NCBI GenBank assembly: GCA_921293015.1 | Contig: OV121090.1 | Span: forward strand, 19,730,304-19,794,303 | DNA from: Phorcus lineatus | Lineage: Eukaryota; Mollusca; Gastropoda; Trochida; Trochidae | Direction of reading: 5' to 3' | DNA length: 64,000 bases | Position numbers and translations under genes: made by a program | The notes under the pieces: model-generated | Told to the model about the DNA's origin: nothing | Databases searched by the model: none | Seen by the model: only the letters and a program-made list of their open reading frames with translations | Shown here: positions 14,787-50,330 of the stretch, one piece after another | Position numbering within the stretch: the first letter of the stretch is position 1 | Layout of the letters: the number at the start of each line of letters is the position of its first letter

Positions 14787-16598
14787 CTATAAATCATTCT
14801 TCGATTTATGTGTACATACATATTTTGCGAAATAGGCGAGCTTTCTTTCTGACCAGTTATTCTTAATTCGTGACATACCTTGATAAACATCTATACATGT
14901 AATCGCTTTCACTCTGCAAACTTCGTCTAAAGTTGAATAGGAACCATGGTTTATCCTCAAAATGAGGATATTATCTGCTGACAGTTCACCACGTACAAGT
15001 CTATCAATAATGACATCAACTTGGTGTTTCCACAATGGTGAAGCTTCTTCCTCAGTCCCAGCAAGCACTATCAGATAGCGGGAACATCGGTTCATACCTT
15101 TTCTTATCCCTTCCAGTTCGCCCTGTCCCGGATGTGTGTCAATAAGGGGAATGAAGGCACCATAACTCAGAGCTTCGAACATAGGACATAGGTATTCATA
15201 GCACAATGGAGCACATGTGTCCTCACAAACAATGAACACTGGTGTATTGTACGCTGTGTTTTCCTTGAGACGATCAAAGATCCAATTAGGGGCTCCATGA
15301 AGCATTATGTTCGAGAAATGCTTGATTAAAGGTAACAACATAATGTCTAATATTTTGTTTGTCATAAACATACACACACACCAAAACAAAACTAAACATA
15401 ACCTTTCGATGAAATGAAACATGAAAGCATATTCTTTAAAGATATCTGAGGGAATACTTGAATAACCGCTACTATTGCTTTCTGTGAAAAAGGTCATAAA
15501 TGGAGAAGGTATGGACGAAAGAACTAATGTCTCTGGAAAGGCAACTTCAACTATTTCCCATTTTGTTGAAATTGAGTTATAAAAACGCCTAAATACCGAA
15601 AAACTATGGACTCCAAATGCCTGAGGGCACATGCATGTCATTCTATAATATACAGTTACACCACTCTCTAGGTGTTGTTTAATCATTCGGTTGTCAGTAG
15701 CCGTTTGCTTGTTAATAGCACGATGATAATAGAGAATGTAGGATGAATCGTCATTTCCACATAGAAAAGGCTCTCCATCTACGAGATGCTCAAAGATAAT
15801 TTCCTCATCGTCCTCAACAAAGGATGTATAGGTAATTTTGGCACTAAACAAACCTAATGCTGGAATTCTCACTACTGTCTTACTATTTGGTTGTTGATTA
15901 AGAATGAATTCTCCAGCACGAAAACGATATCCCTGTAAAAATATGATATCCCTAAATAAGATCCAACAGGAGTACCTTCCAAAGTCTTTGTCATCCAGAA
16001 GGACGATTGAGAGTGTTGAAACAACGGGTATTCTGTCCTGTATGTTGAATGGGGTTGATACGATTTTGTGTCTCGTGCTTTCCATTACAAATGTTTCGTT
16101 TAGTTTCCATACCACCTCGTAATGTTCCATATTGTATAATAACTTGCATCTGAATTCGATGTCTTCACCGATATATCTACTTGTTTCCTCAATAATAATG
16201 GAATCAACAAGCTTTACAGGGTGAACGCTTAGGAATATATGATTGGTGTTTCTGATTAATTCTTTATGTTGCTCATGTTTGTCTAACGCTGGTATCGAAA
16301 ATATTGTTGTGATAAAACTAAACAGCAAATATGCTACAGCAATGGAAATGTCTTTGATAATGTACCACTTGCAAATACACCACACACATTTCACTGTATG
16401 GCGGAGGTTGCTAAAACGAAAGTTCAGTAGTCTAATGTTGATACCCACAAGATAAATAAACGGTGAACAGTCAAATATAGATACCTCCTGATCATTTCCC
16501 CAGGTAGCCACTGAATCAAAAACAATGAAGATCAACGCAAGAACAATCCCTGGTGGAGATCTCCTTAAAATCTTCATAAATCCACAAAGACGTCTCAT
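14787..16598 (-). CDS. Multi-pass Ig-TIR receptor, CTHKSK-tail type (family member 3)
   Basis: A 603-residue, single-exon protein beginning MRRLCGFMKILRRSPP. It carries one copy of the N-terminal hydrophobic module, then the conserved WGNDQE motif, and further spans near 42-58 and 85-103. The Ig domain is about 135-230 (Cys151, Cys210, motif DFGRYSC). The second ectodomain contains MCPQAFGVHSFSVFRRFYNS, a membrane span is about 388-412, and the TIR-like domain is about 450-575. Box 1 is FIVCEDTCAPLC. The BB-loop is LIDTHPGQGELEGI, where the usual Arg of Arg-Asp is Ile. After the TIR comes the family tail YVCTHKSK. It is the closest intact relative of the pseudogene at 21450-23239. The receptor role is inferred from domain layout; the ligand is unknown. 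Confidence 0.82.
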   Translation of the reverse strand: MRRLCGFMKILRRSPPGIVLALIFIVFDSVATWGNDQEVSIFDCSPFIYLVGINIRLLNFRFSNLRHTVKCVWCICKWYIIKDISIAVAYLLFSFITTIFSIPALDKHEQHKELIRNTNHIFLSVHPVKLVDSIIIEETSRYIGEDIEFRCKLLYNMEHYEVVWKLNETFVMESTRHKIVSTPFNIQDRIPVVSTLSIVLLDDKDFGRYSCWILFRDIIFLQGYRFRAGEFILNQQPNSKTVVRIPALGLFSAKITYTSFVEDDEEIIFEHLVDGEPFLCGNDDSSYILYYHRAINKQTATDNRMIKQHLESGVTVYYRMTCMCPQAFGVHSFSVFRRFYNSISTKWEIVEVAFPETLVLSSIPSPFMTFFTESNSSGYSSIPSDIFKEYAFMFHFIERLCLVLFWCVCMFMTNKILDIMLLPLIKHFSNIMLHGAPNWIFDRLKENTAYNTPVFIVCEDTCAPLCYEYLCPMFEALSYGAFIPLIDTHPGQGELEGIRKGMNRCSRYLIVLAGTEEEASPLWKHQVDVIIDRLVRGELSADNILILRINHGSYSTLDEVCRVKAITCIDVYQGMSRIKNNWSERKLAYFAKYVCTHKSKNDL

Positions 16599-21449: not shown

Positions 21450-23239
21450 GATTTATGTGTACATACATATTTTGCGAAAAAAGCAAGCAATATGTCCGAC
21501 CAGGTACTCTTTAGTCTTGACATACCCTGATAAACATCTATACATGTAATTGTTTAACTCACCAAACTTCATCTATAGCTGAATAGGAAGCATTTGTTAT
21601 CCTCCAAATGAGGATATTATCTGCTGACATTTCTCCACGTACAAGTCTATCAATGATGATATCAACTTGGTGTTTCCACAATGGTGAAGTTTCTTCCTCA
21701 GTCCTTGCAAGCACTATCAGATACCGGGAACATATTTCCATGCCTTTTCTTATCCCTTCCAGTTCGCCCTGTCCCGGATGTGTGTCAATAAGGGAAATGA
21801 AGGCACCATAACACAGAGCTTCGAACATAGGACATAGGTATTCATAGCACAGTGGTGCACATGTGTCCTCACAAACTATGTACACTGGTGTAATCTGTGT
21901 TTTCCTTGAAACGATCATAGATCCAGTAAGGGGCGTGATGAATCATTATAGCTAGGAAACTACTTAATATTGGGTAAAATGCAATGTTAAACATTTTGAT
22001 TGAAAAAAATGTACATATACTCATTGCAATACTGAAATATGTAATTTCTACTAAATGAATTATGGAAACATAATCTATCAAAAAATCTAATGGTATATTG
22101 GAATACTTGCTAGAATTGCTTCTTTGAGTGAAATATGCAAGAAATGGAGAGGGCATGGGCGAAATAACTAATGTCACTGGAAAGTCAACTTCCACCAAAT
22201 GCCATTTCGATGAACTTGAGTCATAAAAACGCCTTATCACCGAGAATGTGTGAACTCCAAATGCCTGAGGGCACAAGCATGCCATTGTGTAAAATTGAAT
22301 TATACCACCCTTAATGTGGAATTTCATTATCTTGTTGACAGTAACCATTTGTTTGTTAATAGCACGATGGTAATAAAGAAAGTAGGATGAATCTTCATCT
22401 CCACAAAGAAAGGGAGCACCATCTACTAGATGCTTAAGAAAAATGTTGTCTTCTTCTTCCTCCACAAACGATGTGTAAAAGAATGATGCACTAAATAAAC
22501 CTAATGGGGGTAGTGTTTATTCAAGCTCAATGTTTGGTCGTTTTTGAAGTATGAATTCTTCAAGTATTACTTTGTATATAACTTTGTTTTTGTCGCTTTT
22601 ATATAATATCCAACATGAAAAGTTTCCAAAATCTTTCTCTTCCAAAAGCAGTATAGATAGCGTTGAGATTACAATTTCGGTGTCCGGTGTAAGGGTTGAT
22701 ATTATTTTGTGTCTGCAGCTGTTCAAGACTTCCAAACCATTGTGTATCCAAACAACCATTAACGGTTTGATGTCATAAACTATTTTGCATTCGAATTGTA
22801 TGTCTTCACCAGGATATCGACTTGTTTCCTCAATTATCCCTGAATCTAAAATCTTTCCTGGATGATGTTTAAGGAGTATATGTGTCTCGTTGCTGATTAG
22901 AAATTCATGTTGCTCATGTTTGTCCAATGCTGTTATCAAACATGATTTTGTTATCATTATAAACAACATCCATGCCAAAATAGTTGAAAAGGACCCGATT
23001 ATCAACCATTTGCTGATATGAAACATACACTTTGCAACAACATGAAGGTTGCTAAAACGAAAGTACAGTAGGCAAAAGTTGATATTCACAAGATAAATAA
23101 GCGGTGTACAGTCAAACATAGAAACCTCCTGATCATTTCCCCAGGTAGTCACTGAATCAAACACAATGAAGATCAACACAAGAACAATCACCGGTGGAGA
23201 TCTCCTCAGAATCTTCAAAAATTCACAAAGACGTCTCAT
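21450..23239 (-). pseudogene. Ig-TIR receptor pseudogene (family member 4)
   Basis: This is a full-length relative of the gene at 14787, starting MRRLCEFLKILRRSPP at 23239 and aligning through to the C-terminal tail. It has at least three lesions. There is an in-frame TAA at 22517-22519, after PNIELE, where relatives have Tyr. A small deletion shifts the frame near 21890-21900, just before the TIR box 1. Further loss disrupts the frame near 21555 after IDEV. The Ig domain, second ectodomain (CPQAFGVHTFSVIRRFYDSS) and TIR (DTHPGQGELEGI) remain recognisable. The few lesions suggest fairly recent decay, or an allele in which this copy is null. Confidence 0.8.
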
Positions 23240-25284
23240 AGTTGTACAATATGTGATTTACAACTGTCTTCTACTACAAAGAGGTTGGGGGATGTGAACA
23301 GTTACGGTTGGTGGATTGTACACAGTTTGTAACCTGTTAGATATGATCCGCCCTTGTATTGGATAAATGTGATAAGCATATGCTAAATTAGCCATTTCAA
23401 CTTTTAAATCCTGATTTACTGAGTGTTCTTGTTCCATGCAGACTGAGGGATCAACACTGGTGGGTGGGTGAATTGTGCATATTTTTGTAACTCCCTGTAA
23501 GAAACGACCTGCCTTTTTATTGGATAGGTTCCCTCTTGAGAAACATATTCTAAATAAGCCGATTTGACATTAAAATCCTTAATCAAATATAGCGTTTGAT
23601 AATGGTCACTTACGGGAATCTTTTATTTAAAATATCAGTCTATCAATAAGATAGTTCTGTAGTATTTGAACTTTTAATTGTGTTCTAAAACCTTTGTCAA
23701 TGTGTCCCATATACGGCAACAATGATTCGAGTACTTTTCTCTAAACTTGTATAATATTTTATCAGTAGCAAAATAAACACTAAATGGAAGTTATAAAGAC
23801 AAAAATGTAATATAAACATGTGACATCGACTTCAGTATGCATTGTTTTAAAGGTTCCAATTTTTTCCATTGTGGATAAAGTAAGAAGAGCATAACATTCA
23901 ATATATAAATGTCACTTTCATATCTTTCCTTTTAAAGATAACCTAATAATACAATTGTTTACAAATAATATGTGACTAAATTTCACAGGTATCAAAATAA
24001 AATGTACACCCGTAAAGTTTTGGGATAGCTATGTTCCTTCATCTGAAACCAAGACAAAAGGCTCTTTGTAAACAGGAGTGAGCCAATGACACTAGTGCAG
24101 AGGATTGTGTTGCTACATTTCATTGTAAACTGAGTTTCAGAGAGATATTATCAAAACAAGTACAGGCGATTGCGTAGTTTTCAACATAGATTTCAGGACA
24201 TATCATATCTTTTTATTCTTTATTAGGAAGTGATTTTCCATTCTTCAAAGAGTTTGAAAAGTACAATGATTATCATTGATGAAAGCAAAGCTCTGTGACC
24301 ATGTGAAATGTCCATTTTAAACTCTAAAAAGACACAAACCTGACGGTTGCACTGGATAACATGCACTGAATGTTTTAAAAACTTTCTCTATAACTTTATA
24401 AAATAAATTCATTGCTCGGTATAATCTCATAATAACATGTGAGACATAATAGCTTTTTTATGTATTGATGTTTCAGATCAAGCCAATTTATCTTTAAGAA
24501 CATCCATAACTCATTCACTAAGATGACTAGGTGTACCCATGTGTAGAATCATTGACAGTGTGAACCTTTTCATTCCATGCACACATGGAAAAGTTTCTGT
24601 GTTTGTTCATCCGTGACCAACACATTTTTACTGCAGGAGAAACACCCCGACATATTCATGTGTCAATAATTGGTAGAAATAAAAAAATAATTACACCTGA
24701 CATTATGCTACATGACTACATGTGACGCACTTCCTAGGTACCAATCTCTAATCATGATTAACAAATGATTCCATATCCAATTATTAGAATGAATAGAGAA
24801 ACAAGTAATGAACTCGGTCAGCTTCTTTATTGTTTCTAAACTTATTGACACACACTCAAAAATTCCTGAAAAGATTCAGACATAAACAAGCACATATGAA
24901 ATGAGGTTCAAAAGAAGCTTTACAAGAAATTCAAGGATTCCAATAAAAGATTAGGAGTCAAGATAAGTATGTCTCTTCAACACTACATTTCTTTAAAATT
25001 GTATCCACTAAACATCTGTGATGAAATATATAGCTTTGCACTATTGAAACCTCAAACACATATTTTTTTTCCTCCAGCATTCAATTCATTTCTTCTGCCC
25101 AACAAAATCTTCCAAATCATAAAATCCATAATGTTTCCAAAATGAGATTTTCCATTGTACATGCATTTGTATTGTAGCTTGCTATAAGTAAACCAACTGA
25201 TGAAAAGCTTATTGTGTTTCAGATTCAAACTGCATGAATTGAAACGTTATATCTTTATTTTATTTTGAAGATATTGTTAAAAGG
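23240..25284. other. Duplicated receptor flanks, no gene
   Basis: The 5' flank word (GGTTGGTGGATTGTACACAG at about 23307) appears again in related form at about 23467, so this spacer holds two partial copies of the same upstream flank. About 24600-25284 is the repeated 3' flank of the next gene. No coding sequence is seen. Confidence 0.55.
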
Positions 25285-27204
25285 CTAGAAATCATTCTTC
25301 GATTTATGTGTACATACATATTCTGCGAAAAAAACAAGCAACATGTCAGACCAGAGACTCTTAAGTCTTGACATACCCTGATAAACATCTATACATGTAA
25401 TTGCTTTAACTCTGCAAATTTCATCTATACTTGAATAGGAAGCATGGTTTATCCTCCAAATGAGGATATTATCTGCTGACAGTTCACCACGTACAAGTCT
25501 GTCAATAATGATATCTACTTGGTGTTTCCACAATGGTGAAGCTTCTTTCTCAGTCTCTGCTAGCACTATCAGATAACGGGAACATCTTTCCATGCCTTTT
25601 CTTATCCCTTCCAGTTCACCCTGTCCTGGATGTGCATCTTTCAGAGGTATGAAGGCACCATTACTCAAAGATTCGAAGCAAGGACGTAGGATTGTGTCAC
25701 ACCATGGAACATCAGAGTCCTCACAAGCTATGTAAATAGGGGTATTATACTCACCGTGGTGTTTCAACCTATCAAAGATCCATTTAGGGGATTCATAAAG
25801 CATTGAGTTGAAGATGAAATTATTTGGAAGGGGGAATAAAATAGTTAGCATGTAAAATGTTCTCTGTGTTACAAATATACATACACAGATGAACATACTT
25901 ATACCTGCTACTTCAATCAAATGAAGCATAAAAGCATAATCTTTTAGGAAATATCTTGGGGTATTTGTATAATCGCTACAGTTACTTTCTTGAGTGAAAT
26001 AAGCAAGAAATGGAGAAGGAATGGGCGAAATAACTATTTTTCCTGGAAAGGTAACTTCCTCCATATGCCATTTCAATGATCTTGAGTTATAGAAACGCCT
26101 AAACACTGAGAAGCTATGAATTCCAAATGCCTGAGGGCACATGCTTGTCATTTTGTGATATACAGTTAACCAACGAAGGTGTTTTTGCACCATGCCGTTG
26201 GCAGTCCCCTTTCGCTTGTTAATAGATCGATGGTAATACAAAATGTAGGATGGATCTTCACCTTCACAATGAAAGGGACTTCCATTTACTAGATGCTCAA
26301 AGAAAATGTCCTCGTCTTCTTCCTCAACAAATGATATATAATTAATTATGACACTAAACAAACCTAGTGGTGGTAGAGTTAATTCCATCTCAATGTGTGG
26401 TCGTTTATGAATTAAAAAATCATCAACACGAGCATAATATCTCCGTAATGAACTACCCTTATAGTAAAAGATATAGCAGGAGTAGTTTCCAAAATCCTTC
26501 TCTTCAAGAAGCACTATGGTGAGAGTCGAAATAACGTGTTCCTCGTCAGGTGTAGGGTATGATACGATTTCGTGTCTCGTAGTTTTTATGACAACTTTGT
26601 CATTGTGTAGCCATACAACATGGTACTGCTTTATGTTGTACTGCTTAATGTCAATGTACATTTGGCATCTGAATTGGACGTCTTCACCAGGATATCTACT
26701 AGTTTCTGCAACAAACCTGGAATCAACCATACTTACTGGATGACTCTTGAGAAGTAAATGACTCGTGTTGCCAACTAAAACTTCATGCTGCTCGTGTCTG
26801 TCCAACGCTGACAGAAAAAATGTTGTTGTGATAAAACTAAATAAAACAGTTGCAAATATAGTTGAAACGAATTTAACAATCAACAATTTGAAAATAAACC
26901 ACATAAACTTCACAATTACACGAAGGCGGCACACATTGTTCAATAGTTTAATGTTAACAACAGCAATAGATAGAAGCGGTGTAAGGTCAAACATAGATAT
27001 CTCCTGGTCACTTCCCCAAGTAGTCAGGGAATCCAGCACGACGGAGATCAACACAAGAATAATCACTGGTGGAGATCGCCTCAGGATCTTCATAACCCAC
27101 ACAAGACGTCTATAAGTGACGGAGGCCAGAACGAAGATCATCACAAGAACAAACGCTGGTGGATATCTCATTAGGAAAATCGGCACTTCTAATATAGGTC
27201 CCAT
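25285..27204 (-). CDS. Multi-pass Ig-TIR receptor, CTHKSK-tail type (family member 5)
   Basis: A 639-residue, single-exon protein starting at an ATG (MGPILEVPIF) that follows a possible acceptor (ACATCGCAG). The N-terminus holds two tandem hydrophobic modules: MRYPPAFVLVMIFVLASV (about 12-29) and MKILRRSPPVIILVLIS (about 38-54). Further spans lie near 73-88 and 110-132. The Ig domain is about 170-262 (Cys180, Cys243, motif DFGNYSC). The second ectodomain has CPQAFGIHSFSVFRRFYNS, a membrane span is about 425-446, and the TIR-like domain is about 485-615. Box 1 is YIACEDSDVPWC, the BB-loop is LKDAHPGQGELEGI and the tail is YVCTHKSK. It is the closest intact relative of the pseudogene at 35400-40075, which shares its upstream flank and carries the amplified module. 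Confidence 0.83.
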   Translation of the reverse strand: MGPILEVPIFLMRYPPAFVLVMIFVLASVTYRRLVWVMKILRRSPPVIILVLISVVLDSLTTWGSDQEISMFDLTPLLSIAVVNIKLLNNVCRLRVIVKFMWFIFKLLIVKFVSTIFATVLFSFITTTFFLSALDRHEQHEVLVGNTSHLLLKSHPVSMVDSRFVAETSRYPGEDVQFRCQMYIDIKQYNIKQYHVVWLHNDKVVIKTTRHEIVSYPTPDEEHVISTLTIVLLEEKDFGNYSCYIFYYKGSSLRRYYARVDDFLIHKRPHIEMELTLPPLGLFSVIINYISFVEEEDEDIFFEHLVNGSPFHCEGEDPSYILYYHRSINKRKGTANGMVQKHLRWLTVYHKMTSMCPQAFGIHSFSVFRRFYNSRSLKWHMEEVTFPGKIVISPIPSPFLAYFTQESNCSDYTNTPRYFLKDYAFMLHLIEVAGISMFICVCIFVTQRTFYMLTILFPLPNNFIFNSMLYESPKWIFDRLKHHGEYNTPIYIACEDSDVPWCDTILRPCFESLSNGAFIPLKDAHPGQGELEGIRKGMERCSRYLIVLAETEKEASPLWKHQVDIIIDRLVRGELSADNILIWRINHASYSSIDEICRVKAITCIDVYQGMSRLKSLWSDMLLVFFAEYVCTHKSKNDF

Positions 27205-32279: not shown

Positions 32280-34199
32280 TTACTTATTCTTTGATTTATG
32301 TGTACAAATAAATTTTGCAAAAAAGCCAAGCATTGTGAATTCCCACATCATGTAAATTCGTGTCATACCTTCATAGATATGTATGCATGTAATTTTCTTT
32401 ACTCTACAAACGTCTTCTAAAGTTGAATACGAAGCATTGTTCATCCTCAAAATGCGAATATTATCAGCTGACAGTTCTCCACGTACCAGTCTATCAACGA
32501 TGAGATCAACTTGGTGTCTCCATATTGGAGATGCTTCACTCTCAGTCCCTGAAAGCACTATCACATAGCGGGAACATCTGTCCATGCCTTCTTTAATCCC
32601 TTGCAGCTCGCCCTGTCCTGGATGTGCGTCTTTCAGGGGTATGAAGGCACCATTACTCAAAGATTCGAACAAAGGACTTAGGAATGTGTCACACCATGGA
32701 ACATAAATGTCCTCACAGGCTATATACACTGGTGTATTATACTCTGTTTGATCCTTATAACGCTGAAAAATCCAACTAGGGGCGTAATACACCATTATGT
32801 TGAAGAAAAGACTAATTGGGTGGAAAAATATGATATTCAAGGTTTTGCTTGACAAATATATACATATAAACACAAACACACCTAGAAGTATCTCTTCCAT
32901 TGTTTTTATTATTAGAGCATAATCTGTTAAGAAATCCATTGGTGTGTTGGAATAATTGCTGCTATTGCTTCTTTGAGTAAAATGTGTAAGAAATGGAGAA
33001 GGCATAGACGAAATAACTAATGTCTCTGGAAATATGACTTCTTCTATTTGCCATTTTAAGTTACTGGAGTTATAAAAACGCCGTATTACCGAGAAGCTAT
33101 GGACTCCAAAGGCCCGAGGACACATGCACGTCATTTTAACAAATGTAATTAAACCACCCGTTAAGTATTTTTGTATCATTCGGTTATCAGTAGCCTCTTG
33201 CCTGTTAATTGCCCGATGTAAAGAAAGAATGTTGGATGAATAATCAGCTCCACACTGAATAGGTTCTCCATCTACAAGATGTTCAAAGAAAATATCATCA
33301 TCTTCTTCCTCCACAAATGATATGTAAGTGACTTGGACACTCAACAAACCTAACAGTGGTAGTGTTGATTTCCATTCAATGTTTGGTCGTTTAAATAGTC
33401 TGGATTCCCTTATCTTAAATACATATTGATGTATGTCTTCGGCCATATAATAAACGATCCAACAGGAGTAGTTTCCAAAGTCTTTGTCTTCAAGGAGCGT
33501 TATCGAGAGAGTTGAAATAATGTTGTCCTTGTCTGGTGCAGATGTTGATACTATTTTGCATCTCGTGGTTTCCATAACAACCTCACCATCGTGCATCCAA
33601 AAAACCTTGTACTGTTTGATGTTATGGTATAATTGGCACTTGAACTGGATGTCTTCCCCATGATATCTACTAGTTTCCTCAGAAACAGTCGAATCAACCA
33701 TCCTTGATGGATGAACCTTGAGAAGTATATGGGTCTTGTTGCTGATTAAAGTATTATGTTGCACATGTTTGTCGAGCGATGGCAGTAAACATATTGTTGT
33801 TATTATACTAAATAAAGTAACTGCTACAAAACTTGAAATATCTTTGATAACATACCATTTGATAATAAACCACACATATTTCCCTAGAAGGCACAGGTTG
33901 CTCAAACGATAGTAAAGTGGTCTCATGTTGATAAGTAGGAAAGAAAGAAGCGGTATGAAGTCAAACACAAGTTTCTCCTGATCATTTCCCCAGGTAGTCA
34001 GGGAATCCAACACGATGAAGACCAACAGAAGATAAATCACTGGTGGAGATCTCCTTAGGGCCTTCACAACATCACGGCTTAGCAGTCTCATAGCAACAAA
34101 GAATATAACTAAAATCATCACAAAAACAAACGATGGTGAAGAGCTCCTCAGAATCTCTTCCACATGGCCTAGTAGACGCATTATGAAGTATGATATCAT
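32280..34199 (-). CDS. Multi-pass Ig-TIR receptor, CTHKSK-tail type (family member 6)
   Basis: A 639-residue protein in one coding exon. I use the ATG at 34199 (MISYFIMRLL), the same start as the gene at 7917; a splice acceptor (ATACAG, AG at 34226-34227) lies 26 bases upstream, implying a 5' non-coding exon. The two N-terminal hydrophobic modules are at about 22-40 and 48-65 (ALRRSPPVIYLLLV). Further spans lie near 80-94 and 122-140. The Ig domain is about 176-266 (Cys188, Cys245). The second ectodomain has CPRAFGVHSFSVIRRFYNSS, a membrane span is about 430-450, and the TIR-like domain is about 485-612. Box 1 is YIACEDIYVPWC, the BB-loop is LKDAHPGQGELQGI and the tail is FICTHKSKNK. Upstream flank similarity also pairs it with the gene at 7917. 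Confidence 0.83.
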   Translation of the reverse strand: MISYFIMRLLGHVEEILRSSSPSFVFVMILVIFFVAMRLLSRDVVKALRRSPPVIYLLLVFIVLDSLTTWGNDQEKLVFDFIPLLSFLLINMRPLYYRLSNLCLLGKYVWFIIKWYVIKDISSFVAVTLFSIITTICLLPSLDKHVQHNTLISNKTHILLKVHPSRMVDSTVSEETSRYHGEDIQFKCQLYHNIKQYKVFWMHDGEVVMETTRCKIVSTSAPDKDNIISTLSITLLEDKDFGNYSCWIVYYMAEDIHQYVFKIRESRLFKRPNIEWKSTLPLLGLLSVQVTYISFVEEEDDDIFFEHLVDGEPIQCGADYSSNILSLHRAINRQEATDNRMIQKYLTGGLITFVKMTCMCPRAFGVHSFSVIRRFYNSSNLKWQIEEVIFPETLVISSMPSPFLTHFTQRSNSSNYSNTPMDFLTDYALIIKTMEEILLGVFVFICIYLSSKTLNIIFFHPISLFFNIMVYYAPSWIFQRYKDQTEYNTPVYIACEDIYVPWCDTFLSPLFESLSNGAFIPLKDAHPGQGELQGIKEGMDRCSRYVIVLSGTESEASPIWRHQVDLIVDRLVRGELSADNIRILRMNNASYSTLEDVCRVKKITCIHIYEGMTRIYMMWEFTMLGFFAKFICTHKSKNK

Positions 34200-35399
34200 C
34201 TTGGCTGGTGCCAAGTTTTGCGTCGCTGTATTTTAGCACAGGAAAATTAATGTGGAATAGGCACAAATTTGCATCTCTATAAGGTCGTTCCTCCAAAATC
34301 CAACCTGAAGATGAATAACACACGAATAAACACTGGTGTATATCCAAGGTCCGAAGTAGTAATTGCGCTTCAGTTGAACTGGTCGTCCATGGATACACAA
34401 CCCACAAACCTATATATAGATCGTTGGATGATACGATCAAACTGTCTACACGTTGTATGGGGAAACATTTGATATGGGTGTATACTTGTTGATCACAAAA
34501 ATAGCACTACAAACTACCCAGGTGTGACTGGGTGTCGTTGAAAAGACACCAATCCAGAATACACCGTTTCTTTGTTTTGTATTGTTAAAAACAGTTATAC
34601 TAATCTTTTTCAACCTAATCCTTTTGAAACTAATATTTTCAACCCTGAAGTACAAACTGTACAAAGTGGCGTACATTTTAGAATTTATTTTTGGAATATA
34701 AGTACTACTTTTTGTAAAACGTTCTAATGTTAGAAAAAAGAAAATTTATTGGTTTGTGTTTGATATTTGATTGACTATCTACCCTTAAGAAATGAACATA
34801 ATATATATTTGATTCTTTCCAAAGTTTCCAGTAGCAGATGTAGCTAGAGTTCTCATTTGTGAACAGTGATATTAATATATGACCTTGTAGTGTCGAGGAA
34901 GGAGATCCCGTTACTAATTGCGGATATTGCATGACTATAGTTATAGGTAATTATAAGATCAACAGGTAACGAATATAAACACTAAAGGCATTCATTTTTT
35001 ATGAGAACACCTTTAGATCATATGCATTCGAGAAATGGATTCGTATAGCTTAAACGAGCTTTGAACATTTGTCTAAATAATCCTTGTATTGATTGTCTTG
35101 CTATCTAAGAGCGTTTGGGATTGAAATTTTCATGAAAATATATGAATATTGATCTAGTGGTAGTCAAAAATCACCACAACTTTGGTTATGAATAATCTTA
35201 TATATGTAATGAGCTTTATATCAGTATTCATTACTACAGTTAAAAAGTGTGAAGTTTCTTTTCTACTTGAGGTTTCATTGTTGGCTAAATGAAAAAAGGC
35301 TATCGGGTTTAAGGTCAAAATATTATGCACATCGGAAGAAATCAAAGTCTGCATTTGTAATGTTTTCATTAAAATAATGTTACCAACACTTTATCATTC
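34200..35399. other. Receptor 5' flank and next unit's 3' flank
   Basis: About 34290-34500 matches the upstream flank of the gene at 7917. About 35150-35400 matches the 3' flanks at 7690 and 12720. No coding sequence is seen between them. Confidence 0.5.
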
Positions 35400-38300
35400 A
35401 ATCCTTTGTTTTATGTGTACATATTTTTTCTGCAAAATAGTGAAGCAAAATGAATGCATAAAAATGTTGGAGTCGTGACATTGCATGATAAACATCGATA
35501 CATGTATTGGCTTTTATTCTGCAAACTTCTTGTATAGTTGAAAATAAAGCATGGTTTAACCTCAAAAGGATAATATTGTCTGCTGACAGTTCTCATGTCT
35601 ATCAACGATGATATAAACTTTGTGTACACCAATTGAGATGCTTCCGTCTCTGCAAGCACTATCGCATATCGGTTACGTCTGCCCATGCCTTATCCCTTGC
35701 AGCCCGTCATGTCCCGGGGCTTCGTAAAGCATTATGTTGAAGAAAAGTTCATTTGTAAGGGAAATTAAAATAGTTAGCAAGTATAGTGTTCTCCGTGTAA
35801 CAAATATACATACTCACATAAACCTACTACTGGAAAGGTAACTTCCACCACATGCCATTTCTATGATATTGAGTTATAAAACGCCTTAACACTGAGAACA
35901 CTGAGAAGCTATGAACTCCAGAGAGAGCACATGCTTGTCATTTTGTTATATACACTTTTTTTTTGTGTGTGTTTTTGAACCATGCCGTTGACAGTCCCCT
36001 GTCGCTTGTTAATATATCGACCTACTTTTAATAGATGCTAAAAGAAAATGTCCTTGTCTACTCCCTCAACAAATGAAATGAAAGAGATTTTGACACTGAA
36101 CAAACCTATTGGTGGTAAAGTTTATTTCATCTTATCTTAAGTCGTTTATGAAGTAAAAAATCATTATACTTTGTAATGTTATATCCCTACGGTAATTGAT
36201 ATAGCAGGAGTGGTTTAAAAAAATCTTTCTCTTCAAGAAACAACATATTGATAGTTGAGATAACGTGTTCCCCGTCAGGTGTATAGGGTATGATACCATT
36301 TCGTTACTCTTAAGTTCTATGCCATTGTGTTCATTCAACCTGATACTGCGTAATGTTGCACTGGTTGATGTCATTTTGCATCTGAATTGGACGTCTTCGC
36401 AGGATATCTACTAGTTTTCCCAACAATCATGAATTCAACCATACTTAATGGATGACTTTTTAGAACTAAATGGCTCCTATTGCCCACAAAATTTTATGCA
36501 GCTCATGTCTGTCCAACGACGGTAGAAAACAATTGTGTTGCAATAAAACTAAATGAAGCAGTTGCAAATATATTTCGAACGACTCTTACAATTTGCAAGT
36601 AAAACAAACAAACTTCACAATAACACAAAGGCTGTATAGAAGTTAGTGTTAATAACCACAAGAGATACAAGCGGTGCAATATCAAACACAGATTCTCCTT
36701 ATCATTCCCAAAGTAGTGAAGAAATCAAGCATAAGGATAATCAACATAAGAACAATCACTGGTGTATTTTTCCTCAGTTCGTCAATACCCAAAGAAGATC
36801 TTTCATACAAACATAGGATATAACAAACATCAAAGCAAAGACAATCACTGGTGGAGATCCCATAAGGATCTTCATTACCCAAACAAGTTTTATCGTAGTT
36901 ACGAAGGATAAAACGAAGATCAACACAAGAACAATCTGGTGGAGGTTTCATCAAGATGTCAATTACCCAAGATGTTGATCTTACAACAAGACTTTTCATA
37001 TTAGTTACATGGGATACAGCGAAGATCACCACAAGAACAGTCACTGGTAGAGATCTCATCAGGATCTTCATAACCCAATCAAGATCTTTCATAGTTATGT
37101 GGGATAGTTCGAACATCAACACAAGAACAACCACTGGTCGAGATCTCATCAGGATTTTCATTACCCAATCAAGATCTTTCATAGTTATGTGGGATAGTTC
37201 AATGATCAGCACAAAAACATTCTCTAGTGGAGATTTCACCAGGATCTTCATTACCCAATCAAGATCTTTCATAGTTATGTGAGATAGTTCGAAGATCAAC
37301 ACAAGAACAATCACTGGTAGAGATCTCATAAGGATATTCATTGCCCAATCAAGTTATTTCATAGTTATGTGGGATAGTTCGAGGATCAACACAAGAACGA
37401 TCACTGGTCGAGATCTCAACTTGATCATCATTATCCAATCAAGTTATTTCATAGTTGTGTTGGATAGATCGAAGATCAACACAAGAACAATCACTGGTAG
37501 AGATTTCATCAGGATCTTCTTTACCCAATCAAGATCTTTCATAGTTATGTGGGATAGTTCGAAGATCAACACAAGAACAATTAATGGTAGAGATTTCACC
37601 AGGATTTTCTTTACCCAATCAGGATCTTACATAGTTATGTGGGATAGTTCGAAGATCAACACAAGGACAATCACTGGTAGAGAATTCCACAGGATCTTCA
37701 TTACCCAATCAAGATCTTTCATAGTTATGTGGGATAGTTCGAAGATCAACACAAGAACAATCACTGGTAGAGATCTCAACTTGATCATCATTACCCAGTC
37801 AAGATCTTTCATAGTTGTGTTGGAAAGATCGAAGACCAACACAAGAACAATCACTGGTAGAGATTTCATCAGGATCTTCATTACCCAATCAAGATCTTTC
37901 ATAGTTGTGTTGGATAGATCGAAGACCAACACAAGAACAATCACTGGTAGAGATTTCATCAGGATCTTCATTACCCAATCAAGTTAATTCATAGTTGTGT
38001 TGGATAGATCGAAGACCAACACAAGAACAATCACTGGTAGAGATTTCATCAGGATCTTCATTACCCAATCAAGATCTTTCATAGTTATGTGGGATAGTTC
38101 GAAGATCAACACAAGGACAATCACTGGTAGAGATTTCATCAGGATCTTCATTACCCAATCAAGATCTTTCATAGTTGTGTTGGATAGATCGAAGACCAAC
38201 ACAAGAACAATCACTGGTAGAGATCTCAACTTGATCATCATTACCCAGTCAAGATCTTTCATAGTTGTGTTGGAAAGATCGAAGATCAACACAAGAACAA

Positions 38301-40075
38301 TCACTGGTAGAGATTTCATCAGGATCTTCATTACCCAATCAAGATCTTTCATAGTTGTGTTGGATAGATCGAAGACCAACACAAGAACAATCACTGGTAG
38401 AGATTTCATCAGGATCTTCATTACCCAATCAAGTTATTTCATAGTTGTGTTGGATAGATCGAAGACCAACACAAGAACAATCACTGGTAGAGATTTCATC
38501 AGGATCTTCTTTACCCAATCAAGATCTTTCATAGTTATGTGGGATAGTTCAATGATCAGCACAAAAACATTCTCTAGTGGAGATTTCACTAGGATCTTCA
38601 TTACCCAATCAAGATCTTTCATAGTTATGTGAGATAGTTCGAAGATCAACACAAGAACAATCACTGGTAGAGATCTCATAAGGATATTCATTGCCCAATC
38701 AAGTTATTTCATAGTTATGTGGGATAGTTCGAGGATCAACACAAGAACGATCACTGGTCGAGATCTCAACTTGATCATCATTATCCAATCAAGTTATTTC
38801 ATAGTTGTGTTGGATAGATCGAAGACCAACACAAGAACAGTCACTGGTAGAGATCTCAACTTGATCATCATTACCCAGTCAAGATCTTTCATAGTTGTGT
38901 TGGAAAGATCGAAGACCAACACAAGAACAATCACTGGTAGAGATTTCATCAGGATCTTCATTACCCAATCAAGATCTTTCATAGTTGTGTTGGATAGATC
39001 GAAGACCAACACAAGAACAATCACTGGTAGAGATTTCATCAGGATCTTCATTACCCAATCAAGTTATTTCATAGTTGTGTTGGATAGATCGAAGATCAAC
39101 ACAAGAACAATCACTGGTAGAGATTTCATCAGGATCTTCTTTATCCAATCAAGATCTTTCATAGTTGTGTGGGATAGTTCGAAGATCAACACAAGAACAA
39201 TCAATGGTAGAGATTTCACCAGGATTTTCTTTACCCAATCAAGATCTTACATAGTTATGTGGGATAGTTCGAAGATCAACACAAGGACAATCACTGGTAG
39301 AGAATTCCACAGGATTTTCTTTACCCAATCAAGATCTTTCATAGTTGTGTTGGATAGTTCGAAGATCAACACAAGAACAATCACTGGTAGAGATCTCAAC
39401 TTGATCATCGTTACCCAATCAAGATCTTTCATAGTTATGTGGGATAGTTCGAAGATCAACACAAGGACAATCACTGGTAGAGATTTCATCAGGATCTTCA
39501 TTACCCAATCAAGATATTTCATAGTTGTGTTGGATAGATCGAAGACCAACACAAGAACAATCACTGGTGGAGATTTCATCAGGATCTCCATTACCCAATC
39601 AAGATCTTTCATAGTTGTGTTGGATAGATCGAAGACCAACACAAGAACAATCACTGGTAGAGATTTCATCAGGATCTTCATTAGCCAATCAAGTTATTTC
39701 ATAGTTGTGTTGGATAGATCGTCGATCAACACAAGGACAATCCCTGGTGGAGATTTCATCAGGATCTTCATTACCACAACAAGATCTTCCATAGTTATGT
39801 GGGATAGTTCGAAGATCAACACAAGAACAATCAAGGGTTGAATTGGCCTCAGGACCTCTCTTTCCTCAACAAAATGTTTCACATTTACGTCGGATAGAAC
39901 GAATATATCACAAGAACATTCTCTAGTGGAAATTTCATCAGGATCTTTATTACCAAAGCAATATCTTTCTTACTTTTGTAGAATATAAGGAAGATCATCA
40001 CAAGAACAGTCACTGGTGTAGATCTCATCAGAATAATCAACACTTTACTAAAATGTTTCTTACGAATGGACAAGG
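35400..40075 (-). pseudogene. Decayed Ig-TIR receptor with amplified N-terminal module
   Basis: Fragments align in order with the gene at 25285: C-terminal TIR and tail (35411-35720), membrane span and second ectodomain (35720-36120), Ig region (36130-36480), N-terminal spans (36500-36737), then the amplified module array (36738-40020). Box 1 and the BB-loop part of the TIR are missing, and stops and shifts are numerous, so no receptor can be made from it. The upstream flank at 40190-40420 matches that of the gene at 25285. Whether the array itself is still transcribed or translated cannot be judged from sequence. Confidence 0.8.
36738..40020. repeat. 90-bp minisatellite derived from a membrane-module exon
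   Basis: The unit is 90 bp and encodes, on the minus strand, a 30-residue module made of MKILMKSLPVIVLVLVF and a short polar link ending MKDLDWV. From 37021 to 39811 unit starts fall exactly every 90 bases (32 units, no insertion or deletion). About five more diverged units lie at the edges, some off phase. Eight units carry a variant (AAGTTATTTC or AAGTTAATTC on the plus strand, starting at 37351, 37441, 37981, 38431, 38701, 38791, 39061 and 39691) that places a TAA in the minus frame. Higher-order copying is visible: a block near 37261-37461 recurs near 38611-38811, offset 1350 bp (15 units). Long open frames on the plus strand are a by-product of the same repeat. Confidence 0.9.
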
Positions 40076-40189
40076 TATTTATTTTCCACTGGTTATGTCC
40101 CTTCTTTGCCGAAATTGGAGTTACTTGTGAGAGGTGTCACAATAAAATGTTCTCGAGTGTAGAGATTCGTGTCATTTAATTTTGTAGTT

Positions 40190-40420
40190 AACTACATATG
40201 ACGTGGAAAACGAATAAAACCACGCTATTCTTTTCTCACTTTGATAGTCAACATATAATGTCATTTGGGTCATTATTCAATAGTGACACACAATTAAACT
40301 AAGCTAATTCAGCGTTGAATAATCAATATCAATTAATACCAACCACTTTTAAACAACGAAACTCACGAATAACGGATCGATTTCAACATCAATAAAATTC
40401 TCATTGTAATACAGTAGCTA
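40190..40420. repeat. Receptor 5' flank, paired with 27360-27700
   Basis: Diverged copy of the upstream flank of the gene at 25285, sharing GACGTGGAAAACGAATAAAA and ACCACTTTTAAACAACG. It probably carries the promoter remnant of the pseudogene to its left. Confidence 0.7.
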
Positions 40421-41700: not shown

Positions 41701-41716
41701 TGTCTATGCATTCATA

Positions 41717-41767
41717 TATATATATATATATATATAATATATGACATATTGTGTAAATACTATATAT

Positions 41768-41837
<70 letters not shown>
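41717..41837. repeat. TA/CA microsatellite
   Basis: Two TA runs (about 41717-41736 and 41779-41837) are separated by a short unique stretch and an ACACAC tract. Confidence 0.9.
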
Positions 41838-41839
<2 letters not shown>

Positions 41840-41861
41840 GAAATTGTATTAGGTTTTGATA

Positions 41862-41951
41862 GGTAGTAGTTACTTCATCCATAAACGAGAGATGGATCTA
41901 GTTACACCACACCTGATCGCTGTTTGATCGACAGCTGAATTCGTCGAGGAT
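41862..41951. repeat. Dispersed 90-bp repeat, copy 2
   Basis: Near-identical to 2840-2928 and in the same orientation. Homology ends at the point where copy 1 carries the palindromic element, so this copy resembles the empty site. Confidence 0.7.
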
Positions 41952-44279: not shown

Positions 44280-46028
44280 ATGTTGGGTATTGAACGTGTT
44301 CTGAGGATCCTGAGGAGATCTACACCTGTGTTTGTTATTCTGTTTATCTCCATTGCAGTGGATTCTCTGAATACCTATGGAAATGATCTCGTGTTAACCG
44401 TATTCAACTTTTTGCCGCTACTTTCTCTTGTGTTAAACAACATCCAGGTACTGAAATTCAAGTTACGTCTGTTGTATTACAGCGGAAAACCGATTTTTAG
44501 ATGGTCTCTGTATGGCATTCTTCATATTCTTATCGTTTATCTTGTGTTTATAAGAGTTATGACATATATGATGCCAATTTTGGAGGAGCACGAACACTCT
44601 AATAATCTCATTTTCCCTTTCTCGTTCTATATCACTGAAGTAAAACCCGTAGTTACTGTAGAAACCTTCAGATATCCCGGAGAAGATATTGAATTCAGAT
44701 GCAAGTCTCATATTGGTGACCACTACAGACACATATGGACACATGACGATGTGATAGTCAGAGAGTCGTGGAGGCATAGAATAGATACAGCACGTGAACC
44801 TGAAAACATTACAACTCTTTCTATAAGACTGATAGAGGAGGATGACTATGGTGTATACTCATGTTGGTTGTACGTTAATATGAACCAAGGCATCTATAAA
44901 TTCAAGACTAAAGAATTTACACTAAATAAACGCACTTTTGTAACAGTTGAATCACAAATTCCACTTTCAGGGATATTTTCAACATACGTGGCATACAATT
45001 CACGAGTAGAAGAAGATGATGAAATTGAATTGATTCATAGAGTTGATGGTCAAGAAAAGTCATCTCTATGTTCGGCTAAAGATTCTTCCTACATCCATTA
45101 CATTTACCGAGCACTGCAAAAGCTGGAGCTTATGGATAGCCGAATACTACATGTGCGTGACGAAGACGTCACTGCTTTTCATACGATGATATACATGTGT
45201 CCTCTTGCATTCGGTGCCCATACTTTCTCTGTCTTAAGACACATTTATAACGCCAGTTCAATGCGGTGGGTACTTGCCGAAATTGACATTCCAATGAAAG
45301 TTTTCGTCACACCTAAACGATCTCCATTCCTTGCATATTTTACCAATAGAACAAACAGTAGCAATTATTTAATTGGCTCAATTGACTTCCTTGCAGATCA
45401 GGCCATCGTTTTTCATTCACTGGAAGTGATATTCATATGTGTGATTATAATTGTGTGCATAATTTCCACATCTATACTCATAAACATAGTTATTGATCCT
45501 TTCTTTTATGCAACATTAAACTATTTCGTGAATAAATGGATTGTTCGTTATTTCTATGGAAAAGGAGAAAAAGATACCACACCAGTGTACCTAGCATGTG
45601 AGGAAACTGGTGCTCCTTGGTGTAGCATGGTGCTTAGTCCTGTGTTCGAATCTTTGGGACATGAGACCTTCATACCAATGAGAGACTCTCGCCCAGGACA
45701 GAGCGAGTTAGGAGGTATAATGGAAGGAATGGAAAGATGTTCCCGCTATGTTATAGTTATTACAGAGAAAGAGGAGGGAACTTCACCATTGTGGCAACAC
45801 CAAGTGGAATTGATTCTTGACAGATTGGTACGTGGAGAGTTGACGGAATACAATATTCTCACTGTGAGCATAAACCATGCGTCATATTCACCTATAGATA
45901 ATGTTCGCAGAGTGAAAAATATAGCATGTTTGGAATTGTGTAAGGATATACCAGCCGATGACCGATCTCTTGATGGCGTCATTCGGTGGCTTCTGTCGTC
46001 CAAGGCGAATCATTTGCTTCAGTATTAA
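44280..46028 (+). CDS. Multi-pass Ig-TIR receptor, LLQY-tail type (family member 7)
   Basis: A 582-residue, single-exon protein, on the strand opposite to the main run of the family. It has one N-terminal hydrophobic module (RILRRSTPVFVILFISIAV, about 9-27), then spans near 42-56 and 78-98. The Ig domain is about 130-216 (Cys141, Cys195, motif DYGVYSC). The second ectodomain has CPLAFGAHTFSVLRHIYNASS, a membrane span is about 378-402, and the TIR-like domain is about 433-555. The TIR shows YLACEETGAPWC and the most canonical BB-loop in the window, MRDSRPGQSELGGI. The tail SSKANHLLQY is shared with the gene at 840. A candidate polyadenylation signal AATAAA lies at 46536. Downstream flank similarity shows that it and the pseudogene at 48508 are tandem duplicates. 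Confidence 0.83.
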   Translation: MLGIERVLRILRRSTPVFVILFISIAVDSLNTYGNDLVLTVFNFLPLLSLVLNNIQVLKFKLRLLYYSGKPIFRWSLYGILHILIVYLVFIRVMTYMMPILEEHEHSNNLIFPFSFYITEVKPVVTVETFRYPGEDIEFRCKSHIGDHYRHIWTHDDVIVRESWRHRIDTAREPENITTLSIRLIEEDDYGVYSCWLYVNMNQGIYKFKTKEFTLNKRTFVTVESQIPLSGIFSTYVAYNSRVEEDDEIELIHRVDGQEKSSLCSAKDSSYIHYIYRALQKLELMDSRILHVRDEDVTAFHTMIYMCPLAFGAHTFSVLRHIYNASSMRWVLAEIDIPMKVFVTPKRSPFLAYFTNRTNSSNYLIGSIDFLADQAIVFHSLEVIFICVIIIVCIISTSILINIVIDPFFYATLNYFVNKWIVRYFYGKGEKDTTPVYLACEETGAPWCSMVLSPVFESLGHETFIPMRDSRPGQSELGGIMEGMERCSRYVIVITEKEEGTSPLWQHQVELILDRLVRGELTEYNILTVSINHASYSPIDNVRRVKNIACLELCKDIPADDRSLDGVIRWLLSSKANHLLQY

Positions 46029-46510: not shown

Positions 46511-48507
46511 CTATGTCGAAACATTGCTTCTTCAGAATAAAGAAGTTGAATATCCATAAACATGACTTCTTCATTCCTTATTATCTCAACTTATATGATG
46601 CCTATTAAAGAAATAATCTATAAACGCATCAATTTATGCCATTAAAATATTCAATGCTATTATAAAATCTAGAAGTATTTCTTAATATGGTTTTTATAGC
46701 TGACATTTCTTACGATTCCAAGATCACTTTGCTAACAGTTACTCATTTCTTTCCTTTCAACGAAATTTTGGTAGATATGAGTTCACTTACTGCTAAAAGG
46801 GAAAAGAATGTCCCATAATAGACATTCAAAAGAAATTTTTCTCCCTAATGACATGAGTTCCTTAGTAATTCTCATCATCAAAGCATAGCCAAACTACCTA
46901 TACCTGCATTACCGTATATGCATGCTCCATTTTTTCCAACAGTTCTTGTCATCAATTGTTTATAAATTGTCTACTAAACTTAAGAATTACTTAAATATAC
47001 TTAATCATATTTTGTTATGAAATAGAACATAATTTGTTCATATTTTTAAAGTCAAATTTACTTATGGGTCACTCCAGGTTATGAAACCTCATATTTCATT
47101 TGGCGGTATAATAATGGAATGAACATTATCTTCAAATCCTGGGGATGAACCATTTTCATTGAAAGTGCCGAATCAGACCAAGACTACAATTCTAGCTACA
47201 GACGTTCATTTCATCATTCATATATATGGTACAAAGGAACAACGAACATCCTTGTTCAAAATATGGCAACCAAATGATGCATATGGTATTTATTACAATC
47301 AAATCTTATTCTTTGTTGATTCAAAATGGTATGTATTTGCAGATTGGATTAGGGAAAGTGAGATTCTTCATTTTTCAAAGTTGATTTTGAATTGTCATGA
47401 GGGTGTTAAATATTACATTAGAGTGAAGGCTAGTTCACAGAGGGGACTATCAATAACAACAAATCTACAAGCATTTGCCCCTCAATAGGTATCTCAACGT
47501 CTAATGTCCGAAAACAGCGTGCTCAAACCAGACAATTATACAAATTGCATTAAGCATTTTGAGTTTGATATCAGAAATATTAACATAAGAGTCGTTGACA
47601 ACAAGCATGCTTTCCAAGAAAGAAGTGTTTTCAATGGCTGTAAGTTTGTAAATTGTTTGTGATGTATTTTTTTACCGCAAGACCAAGAAGTGATTAAATT
47701 AGAGCAGAGGTTAGCGTAGAATTGTGTGACTATAGTTATTTACGTGAATATCTGTCTCTTTTCAAAATAAGTATAAGTAAATCACAATGTATCTTTAATT
47801 GGGAGCAGGATAACTTTGTCTGTAGTAGAGAACTGTTCTACACACAGTAAGGTTTGGATTCTACAATGAATTTCAGCGCAGAACCATAGATCCACTGATG
47901 GTTTGCTAGTTCCAGCCGCAATACATGTACGTAGCTGCGGGCTCTCCCTGCAATAATAATTGCAGCCATAATAAAATGGGAGTATTATACTCTTGAAAGC
48001 TGCGTTAAACCCCATATCACCTCACCCAACATATAATTTAACTTTAGGGTTTCATAATAAATGTTGTGTACAATTTATTTTCTCAGCACATTTCAGGATA
48101 AGATTGGACACCTGTACTTGTAGAGCTAACTAATTATATATATTTCCAAAGTAAATTACATGGTCAAAGTCATCATTCATAATTATACACCTATATAATG
48201 AACATTGACCGTCAATATACTGATTAAACGTCTGTGTAATCTAATCATGATAGTATCAGCGACATATATAGATACTTACATGGTTTATAGAAAAACTAGG
48301 CCAGTATCACATTTCTAATCTCTCGGTGCAGTTGAGCTCAATCCAAGAAAGTCTACACCAACCTTTGTCGTTGTTTTAATCCTCGTCTCTCAACATGAAA
48401 CATTCTTTGAATAGTGCTGACGGGATTTATTGAAAAGTTATATTTCATCTATATGAATCTGTTGGGAATATTGGGATCTGTTAATACATGAAACATCAGA
48501 CATTACT
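46511..48507. other. Spacer with one unassigned open frame
   Basis: Mostly non-coding. From 47023 a frame stays open to the stop at 47488. Its end (EGVKYYIRVKASSQRGLS) faintly resembles the last strands of a fibronectin type III domain. It has no early ATG, so it could be an internal exon or its remnant on the plus strand. No partner exons are recognised. Confidence 0.35.
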
Positions 48508-50330
48508 ATGAGATTTCTCAGCCCGGTTGTGAAGATTCTGAGGAAATCTCCACCAGTGATTGTTCTTGTGTTGATCTTCATTGCGTTGGATTCACTTACC
48601 ACTTGGGGATATGATCAAGAAGTATCTGTTTTTGACATTACATCAATACTTTATCTTGTAGCCATAAATGTTAGATTAGTTGTAAATCGCTTGTACCATC
48701 TTCGTGTAATTGCAAAATTGTTCTCTTTGGTCTGCAAGTGGCTTAAAAAGCTAATCGTTTTCTATTTAGTTACAACCCTTATATTTGTCATAATAACAAA
48801 AGTTTTGATGTCAGCCTTGAATCAACACGGGGTACGTATATCTTTCACAAGCTCTATGGATCAAATACAAGAAGTTCGTAATTTTTCTGGTGGTGTTAAT
48901 TTCTTTGTTAAGAAAATTAAATATCTAAATGAAGACATCATACTAAGCTGCATTTTTCACAATCCCTACACTGATTGTGGACACCACAGGGTTGAATGGG
49001 AATTTGATGGCTTGCCAGTCATAGAAACATGGAGACACAAGATAATACCAAACTGCAATACTGGTGATAGACACATTCTTTCTAATCTCTCCATAAGGTT
49101 CTTAATGGACCAAGACTTTGGAACCTACTCATGTGTGATATTTGACCGATATGAAACAAACTGGTTTATGATAGGAATTGAAAACACTTCCCTTTTAAAA
49201 CGACCAATAGAAAATAAGTAGTTACAGCTACCAGTTTTAGGTCTGTTTAGTGTCATGTTCAAATACGACACCTTTGTGGATGGAGAAAATGATGAAATAC
49301 TCTTCCAGCATCTTGTCAATGGTAAACATTTCCAATGTAACCAAGGCGATGTTTCCTATGTTCTGTCTCTGTACCAAAAAATGATCAATCATTATTATAC
49401 CTACAACAAAATGAGACAAGCTCGAGCTCTTGATGTGCAGAATTCCGTTTACATAATGACATGCATGTGTCCTCAAGCATTCGGAGTCCATACATTCTCA
49501 GTGTTAAGGAAAAGCTACAATTTAAAAACATCACAATGGGAAATAATTGAACAAACTCTCCCTGAGACAGTTCATATTTCCCCAATGCCTTCTCCATATT
49601 TTGCATATTTTATTCAAAGAAGCAACAGTAACGAATTTGCAAATGTACCAAAATACTTCTTGACAGAACATGCTTTTTTAATTCATCTCATAGAAATCAC
49701 TTGTATATGTGTTTTGATTTGTGTGTTCATAATTTTAACATCTATTCTCATACGTAAAATTATTGATCCTTACATATCTGATCCTTTAATGCTTTTCATG
49801 TATAAACTGAGTGTTACTTGTTGCTATTCAAAACGTAGAGAGTATACCACACCAGTGTACATAGCATGTGAAGAAACTGATGCTCCATCGTGCAGCTCGG
49901 TGCTAAGTCCTGTGTTCGAATCTTTTGGATATGAAACCTTCATACCCCTGAGGGACACACCCCCAGGTCAGAATGAGTTAGAAGGCATAATGGAAGGAAT
50001 GGAAAGGTGCTCCCGCTATGTAATATTGGTGACAGAGAACGAACAAGACGCCTCCGGAATGTACAAACACGAAGTTGATGTGATTCTTGATAGACTTGTA
50101 CTGGACTAGATGTTATTCTTGACAGATTAGTACTGGGAGAGTTGCAAGAATATGATATCGGTGTGAGCATAAGCCATCTGTTAAATAGACCTATAGCTTA
50201 AGTTCCTGGAGTGAAGGATATAACGTGAGGAACTCTGCAAGGATGGTCGAATGAACCTCTCCTTGATGTTATCGGGTGGCTTCTGTCATAGAAGGCGAAT
50301 CAATTACTCCAGTAAAGTACTTTGGAACTT
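48508..50330 (+). pseudogene. Ig-TIR receptor pseudogene, LLQY-tail type (family member 8)
   Basis: This is a full-length relative of the gene at 44280. One in-frame TAG at 49219-49221, just after the Ig domain (RPIENK), interrupts an otherwise continuous frame that runs on to 50109. At about 50073-50132 a segment (GATGTGATTCTTGATAGACT and its near copy) is duplicated with a 32-bp offset, which shifts the frame within the TIR domain. Beyond it, the C-terminal region is recognisable at DNA level up to the LLQY-equivalent at about 50315 but carries further small changes. The Ig domain, CPQAFGVHTFSVLRKSYN ectodomain and TIR (LRDTPPGQNELEGI) are well preserved, so decay is fairly recent. Confidence 0.82.

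Follow-up and report, generated by a model that had tools for sequence, protein, structure and literature searches.

A stretch of 64,000 nucleotides from the gastropod Phorcus lineatus (contig OV121090.1, positions 19,730,304 to 19,794,303), referred to here as the window, holds a cluster of receptor genes and, on the minus strand, an array of about 37 tandem units of 90 bp. From the analyses it appeared very likely that the array arose by amplification of the N-terminal repeat of a gene of this cluster that is now dead, starting from a tandem of two units. Judged by its similarity to the clustered receptors, the unit corresponds to the start methionine (Met) and the hydrophobic N-terminus of such a protein, read on the minus strand. 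At present the array is most likely untranslated, with the behaviour of a minisatellite.

Tandem Repeats Finder (TRF) detected a single large array in the window, located at 37010-40031, with a period of 90, 33.6 copies, 88% matches, 0% indels, and a score of 4316. Its core consists of 31 consecutive units (37010..39799, minus strand) following each other without gaps in a fixed 90-bp register. The minus-strand consensus unit is an open frame, reads TTMKDLDWVMKILMKSLPVIVLVLIFDLSN, and has Met at position 3, which is kept in 31/31 core units. The core is bordered on both sides by three diverged units with indels, the proximal edge (36735..37009, minus strand), which continues into a receptor body, and the distal edge (39800..40070, minus strand), which includes unit 32 (39800-39889) with one +1/-1 indel pair. 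Compared to the consensus, the edges show 119 mismatches and 8 indels. In total, 37 units are present at 36735-40070, three proximal, 32 in register, and two distal. An initial sequence-only reading had placed the array at 36738-40020, which needed to be extended only slightly, and had estimated the amplification as about 35-fold, in agreement with the roughly 35 units found beyond two. Its statement that 32 units keep exact 90-bp phase without indels holds for the 31 units of the core, but not for unit 32. Repeats of tens of bp that follow each other head to tail and keep their phase are the arrangement of a coding-derived (intragenic) minisatellite. Arrays of near-identical units are prone to misassembly, and a collapse or a false expansion could mimic such a picture. 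However, there are 28 distinct units among the 32 in register, no exact repeat at a lag of any multiple of 90 bp is longer than 235 bp, and the 3.3-kb array lies inside a 49.6-Mb contig, without any N in the window; an assembly artefact is thus very improbable.

The relation of the unit to the receptors is apparent from several comparisons. When the 90-bp consensus was scanned without gaps over the rest of the window, the ten best placements were located at the N-termini of seven receptor genes or pseudogenes, with scores of 66, 66, 65, 64, 57, 56, 53, 50, 50, and 49 of 90. The best of 50 shuffles scored 49 (mean 43.5), and the three placements at 49-50 rely on position and phase besides score. 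Searching the 957.8-Mb assembly with the unit, in which only the best candidates were scored, all 40 DNA matches listed fell inside the window; those at receptor N-termini are found at 48530 (94% identity, 50 bp), 27042 (86%, 65 bp), and 23168 (79%, 78 bp). A tree was calculated from 10 receptor units and 37 array and edge units (47 rows). In it, one clade (97/95), nested among the receptor units, unites four of the five edge units with all 32 in-register units, while the fifth edge unit, the outermost distal one (39979-40070, minus strand), joins unit 1 of the receptor at 25288-27204 (92/71). At the other end of the array, the last proximal unit before the receptor body (36735-36824, minus strand, reading LRKNTPVIVLMLIILMLDFFTT) matches unit 2 of the same receptor. 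One diverged unit type occurs in the core, as units 3 and 18, and again in the distal edge, at 39890 (80/83). The tree had been set beforehand as a check on the proposal that the unit corresponds to the hydrophobic module at the N-terminus of the receptors nearby, and this proposal is borne out by the tree as well as by the DNA matches and the consensus scan. Together with the colinearity described below, these results show that the unit derives from coding sequence of its host gene. It is barely conceivable that the array is instead an ordinary minisatellite or satellite family without relation to the receptors that was inserted at this site. A homogeneous middle with diverged edges, as observed here, is typical of satellite and minisatellite arrays, but the receptor homology, the colinear flanks, and the lack of another copy among the assembly matches listed all speak against such an insertion.

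Three intact receptors on the minus strand, 25288..27204, 7920..9818, and 32283..34199, contain two tandem units each; neither this tandem nor the broken receptor body beside the array figured in the initial reading. Unit 1 and unit 2 are identical at 53/90, 52/90, and 47/90 positions, respectively, compared to shuffled means of about 24, and in none of the three receptors was an equally good value obtained in 2000 shuffles. The units are spaced by exactly 90 bp in the first receptor (unit 1 at 27122-27211, unit 2 at 27032-27121) and by 93 bp in the two others (9718-9807 and 9625-9714; 34099-34188 and 34006-34095). Since three intact receptors hold two tandem units, the tandem duplication would most simply be older than the array. 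Copy numbers of 1, 2, or about 37 units are found among the paralogues of the window, a difference between paralogues that is another mark of coding-derived minisatellites.

The single open reading frame (ORF) receptor at 25288-27204 is the closest paralogue of the array gene, and the similarity extends across both ends of the array. The 5' flank of the array (40071..40420, minus strand) is homologous to and colinear with the 5' flank of this receptor; flank and outermost unit together are identical at 336/430 ungapped positions, and the last units with the start of the body at 252/333. Blastn aligned the flank pieces with E values of 3e-38 and 2e-28. As flank and unit 1 on one side and the last units and body on the other are colinear, the receptor at 25288-27204 appears to show the two-unit state of the array gene. 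By this alignment, flank, unit 1, unit 2, and body follow each other in the sister, and the array gene has the same order with about 35 additional units inserted between unit 1 and unit 2.

The receptor body adjoining the array (35401..36734, minus strand) is decayed, with about 20 frameshifts (16-21 depending on the paralogue aligned, n=4), three in-frame stops, and large deletions. The best of the four paralogues was again the receptor at 25288-27204, with 290/469 aligned codons identical, 20 frameshifts, three stops, and two gaps, 44 and 53 codons long; the alignment starts within the proximal units and covers both units of this receptor. Changes private to single genes were counted over 1302 full columns of a four-way alignment. 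For the decayed body, 109 private substitutions (8.4%) were obtained, distributed over the codon positions as 38/44/27 without third-position bias, and 22 private indels, of which 17 are frame-breaking. The sister at 25288-27204 has 47 private substitutions (20/7/20) and two private indels, and the receptor at 32283-34199 has 112 (36/28/48) and one.

Variation within the core revealed no sign of selection on the encoded protein. In the receptor frame, the 58 distinct variants at 46 sites comprise 12 synonymous changes, 45 nonsynonymous changes, and one stop. There is no synonymous excess (12 versus 14.2 +/- 2.8 expected), no departure from the expected synonymous count in any of the six frames, and no protection of the hydrophobic core, in which 17 nonsynonymous variants, V to E, I to N, and L to R among them, were found versus 13.4 expected. 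Purifying selection on the unit protein is therefore not indicated. In-frame stops are present in 10/31 core units; the first stop variant, consisting of two linked changes, occurs in eight units of three distinct types, and the second in two units. With these stops, and with the frameshifts in the edge units and the receptor body, no open frame runs through the units into the gene, and the array does not qualify as a functional coding repeat in this respect either.

One frame of the plus strand is nearly open over the array, with ORFs of 127, 234, 214, and 402 codons and a stop in only 3/31 units. That this strand is the meaningful one is highly improbable: an open consensus unit opens the whole array, the synonymous count of 13 versus 14.7 expected shows no excess, and the homology that was found is that of the minus-strand receptor frame, plus-strand relatives not having been searched for. 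For lack of any sign of selection, the plus-strand reading was rejected.

Within the array, five blocks of two to three units are repeated at lags of 5, 7, 12, 15, and 18 units, differing at 3/270, 2/270, 1/180, 1/270, and 4/180 positions, respectively. These blocks were chosen as runs with at most two differences per unit, and the figures describe the most similar parts of the array rather than the array on average. From the copied stop variants, the absence of a synonymous excess, and the nearly unchanged recurring blocks it follows that the latest growth most likely occurred after the death of the gene. The latest copying is most likely younger than the stops and much of the indel decay of the body.

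A different timing with the same origin has to be considered. Much of the array may have grown in frame in a living gene, a receptor with many N-terminal hydrophobic segments being made or tolerated, followed by gene death and a last round of block copying. This course of events is unlikely, though several observations fit it: the 31 indel-free units in 90-bp phase, set against 22 indels per 109 substitutions in the body, the open consensus, the conserved Met at position 3, and the apparent age of some unit types, as the diverged type of the distal edge is found in the core as well. On the other hand, neither the synonymous count nor the hydrophobic core showed any protection, and one stop variant is found in three unit types and probably predates much of the copying. 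A more specific version, a translated receptor with at least a dozen in-frame units, a start codon in each, and a variable number of anchors, in which selection on the frame purged indels until the gene died shortly before the last block copies, is quite improbable.

Continued growth after the death of the gene is part of the preferred explanation, but a number of points weigh against this explanation, the missing indels foremost. Applying the indel ratio of the body to the 58 core variants, 11.7 indels are predicted and none are found (P 8e-6); the frame-breaking indels of the body by themselves predict 9.0 (P 1e-4), and the edge units, with 8 indels per 119 mismatches, predict 3.9 (P 0.02). 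The 20 single-unit variants alone predict 4.0, 3.1, and 1.3 indels at the body, frame-breaking, and edge ratios (P 0.02, 0.04, and 0.26, respectively). These yardsticks assume independent variants at one indel ratio, an assumption that copying violates. Because homogenisation removes substitutions as well as indels, part of the core variation may be older than the death of the gene. The 8.4% private change of the body runs from the split with the sister and includes time alive, and the intact receptor at 32283-34199 has accumulated 112 private changes in the same columns. Gene conversion without growth of the array could have spread the shared stops and the near-identical blocks. The grouping of the outermost unit with unit 1 is modestly supported, and all evidence comes from the sequence of one assembly. 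Either much of the core variation predates gene death, corresponding to early in-frame growth, or the exchange between units filters indels. The indel-free core is therefore explained in part only, which leaves room for an earlier, translated in-frame stage. Recent expansion, homogenisation, and past selection on the reading frame had all been named as causes of the missing indels; recent copying and homogenisation are best supported, and past frame selection is a possible contributor.

The preferred history would comprise the following steps. A 90-bp segment with the start Met and a short hydrophobic anchor would have been duplicated in tandem in an ancestor of several cluster receptors, three of which still show the tandem. 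The seed would be such a two-unit tandem in one gene copy, sister to the receptor at 25288-27204. Misaligned exchange, presumably by unequal crossing-over, gene conversion, or both, could have added whole 90-bp units between the first and the last one, and multi-unit blocks would have been added later, to reach the total of about 37. The gene body has degenerated through indels and stops, as observed. Copying within the array would have continued after its own frame was broken, probably after the stops and much of the decay. Recurrent copying would keep the middle uniform and in phase, and edge units beyond the reach of exchange would retain old substitutions and indels. Such an array is probably length-polymorphic. 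The intact siblings with a two-unit seed and the start codon in the first unit suggest that the number of anchors could vary between individuals. A DNA hairpin of the unit was rejected as a driver of instability (z -0.04 versus shuffles), and a search of 34000-42000 against Rfam gave no matches at gathering scores.

It had also been proposed that each unit predicts one membrane span. Hydropathy is in favour, as 28/31 core units reach at least 1.6 on the KD-19 measure, for which 1.6 is the conventional cut-off. The uncharged stretch of the consensus, however, is 11 residues long (S16-F26), and the helices at 16-41 and 45-63 in the AlphaFold model of the receptor at 25288-27204 (six sequences, mean predicted local distance difference test score (pLDDT) 45.5) have a pLDDT of about 30-45. 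One membrane span per unit is thus plausible from these predictions.

The receptors themselves were defined by six ORFs that are alignable to one another, each in a single frame and with 585-670 codons from stop to stop. They share a layout in which a hydrophobic N-terminus is followed by one immunoglobulin (Ig) domain, another hydrophobic segment, and a domain at the C-terminus. Ig_3 was detected in 6/6 members with a best E value of 4.2e-6, all six scores being below the Pfam curated cut-off, and among the best 50 of 1975 Foldseek matches Ig-fold chains head the list. On these grounds the neighbouring receptors are regarded as Ig-domain proteins. The C-terminal domain is probably a divergent TIR domain. 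Searching the six whole receptors for Pfam TIR domains gave nothing at 0.01; at relaxed thresholds, TIR_2 matched 2/6 members weakly (best E value 0.0017). In a profile search of PDB with the C-terminal domain, the best five of 23 matches were IL1RAPL1, IL1RAPL2, and a Toll-related chain (E values 0.016-0.081), which we take to be TIR chains, and most of the others were unrelated. A phmmer search of PDB with the single sequence of one C-terminal domain yielded two matches, neither of them a TIR protein by name, and the AlphaFold prediction for this domain by itself was poor, with a mean pLDDT of 37. Foldseek against viral structures returned mainly Ig-like and envelope proteins among the best 50 of 728 matches and provided no lead. 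TIR proteins of bivalves have reportedly been reviewed by Gerdol and colleagues in 2017.

Family members are distributed over positions 840-50109 of the window and comprise six intact genes, two broken ones, and the array pseudogene, all single-ORF and apparently intronless. With one receptor as query, all 18 matches listed in the 958-Mb assembly lie inside the window; 45 candidates were scored in this search, and distant relatives, including paralogues outside the cluster, may be missed. Besides the three receptors with two units, one detected unit is present in the intact receptors at 14790..16598 (minus strand, unit 16516-16605) and 44280..46025 (plus strand, unit 44273-44362), as well as in the broken receptors at 21559..23257 (minus strand, unit 23157-23246) and 48457..50109 (plus strand, unit 48501-48590, 94% DNA identity over 50 bp), the latter containing two in-frame TAG codons. 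The intact receptor at 843..2585 (minus strand), the most divergent of the six aligned, received none of the best unit placements in the scan. At 48306-48395, 195 bp upstream of the unit at 48501, the sequence reads AVELNPRKSTPTFVVVLILVS and resembles a decayed extra unit, with 44/90 identities, a value within the null range.

Other features of the window include a 102-bp unit present in 1.9 copies at 2980-3168 (98%, TRF), which contains an inverted repeat and resembles a tandem pair of a short hairpin element, and 30 uninterrupted G residues at 31228-31257. Two unrelated ORFs are located at 54131-55045 and 56323-56925; by eye, one is Mpv17-like and one is rich in Gly, Pro, and Arg with an RNA-binding-like stretch. 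In the mitochondrial contig C74 (L030 6175-9200), a TA-repeat tract of about 3 kb separates coding blocks, with 98% A+T and 94.5% TA/AT dinucleotide steps. The 19.1-kb mitochondrial contig carries cox3-nad3-nad2-cox1-cox2-atp6 on one strand (cox1 by Pfam, the others by eye) and nad1-nad6-cob-nad4L-nad4-nad5, in transcription order and by eye, on the other. This gene order would agree with that of molluscs, chitons or vetigastropods for example.

The locus is a clear example from nature of a short coding repeat that has expanded into repeat DNA, most likely non-coding. With an intact two-unit gene and a dead sister of about 37 units within 13 kb, the seed of the minisatellite, its edges, and its site of growth can be read directly. 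Intragenic repeats are also known from mucin genes, in which the units of the variable number tandem repeats (VNTRs) are translated. The array resembles the mucin VNTR exons described in PMC13345508 in that a unit was amplified within one coding exon, but differs in having stops in 10/31 core units and a broken gene body. With respect to the receptors, IG-TIR proteins are named as a category in the legend of a figure in which Aplysia is compared with other animals (PMC9334734), and the receptors resemble them in combining an Ig and a probable TIR domain in one protein. The receptors differ in being encoded by a single ORF, with a hydrophobic N-terminus that is extended and a start unit that is repeated; their match to TIR is weak, and the resemblance is one of domain combination.

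A literature search covering titles and the beginnings of abstracts, with subscription papers mostly outside its range, revealed nothing on this locus or on a similarly amplified start or anchor unit. Expansion of coding minisatellites in particular paralogues is already known, for example from human segmental duplications. According to De Grassi & Ciccarelli (2009, PMC2812944), recently duplicated human paralogues contain variable internal tandem repeats, in some cases coding units of more than 60 bp that are mostly in frame, with slippage or unequal crossover named as the cause. As in these human paralogues, the tandem unit studied here is intragenic and its copy number varies among paralogues. 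The average given there is four units of 30 bp, whereas about 37 units of 90 bp are found here versus two in the sister, in a copy that has become a pseudogene. Several features together make the locus unusual: a unit made of start Met and anchor, an intact two-unit sister about 10 kb away, growth of about 18-fold in a dead gene, and a core without indels.

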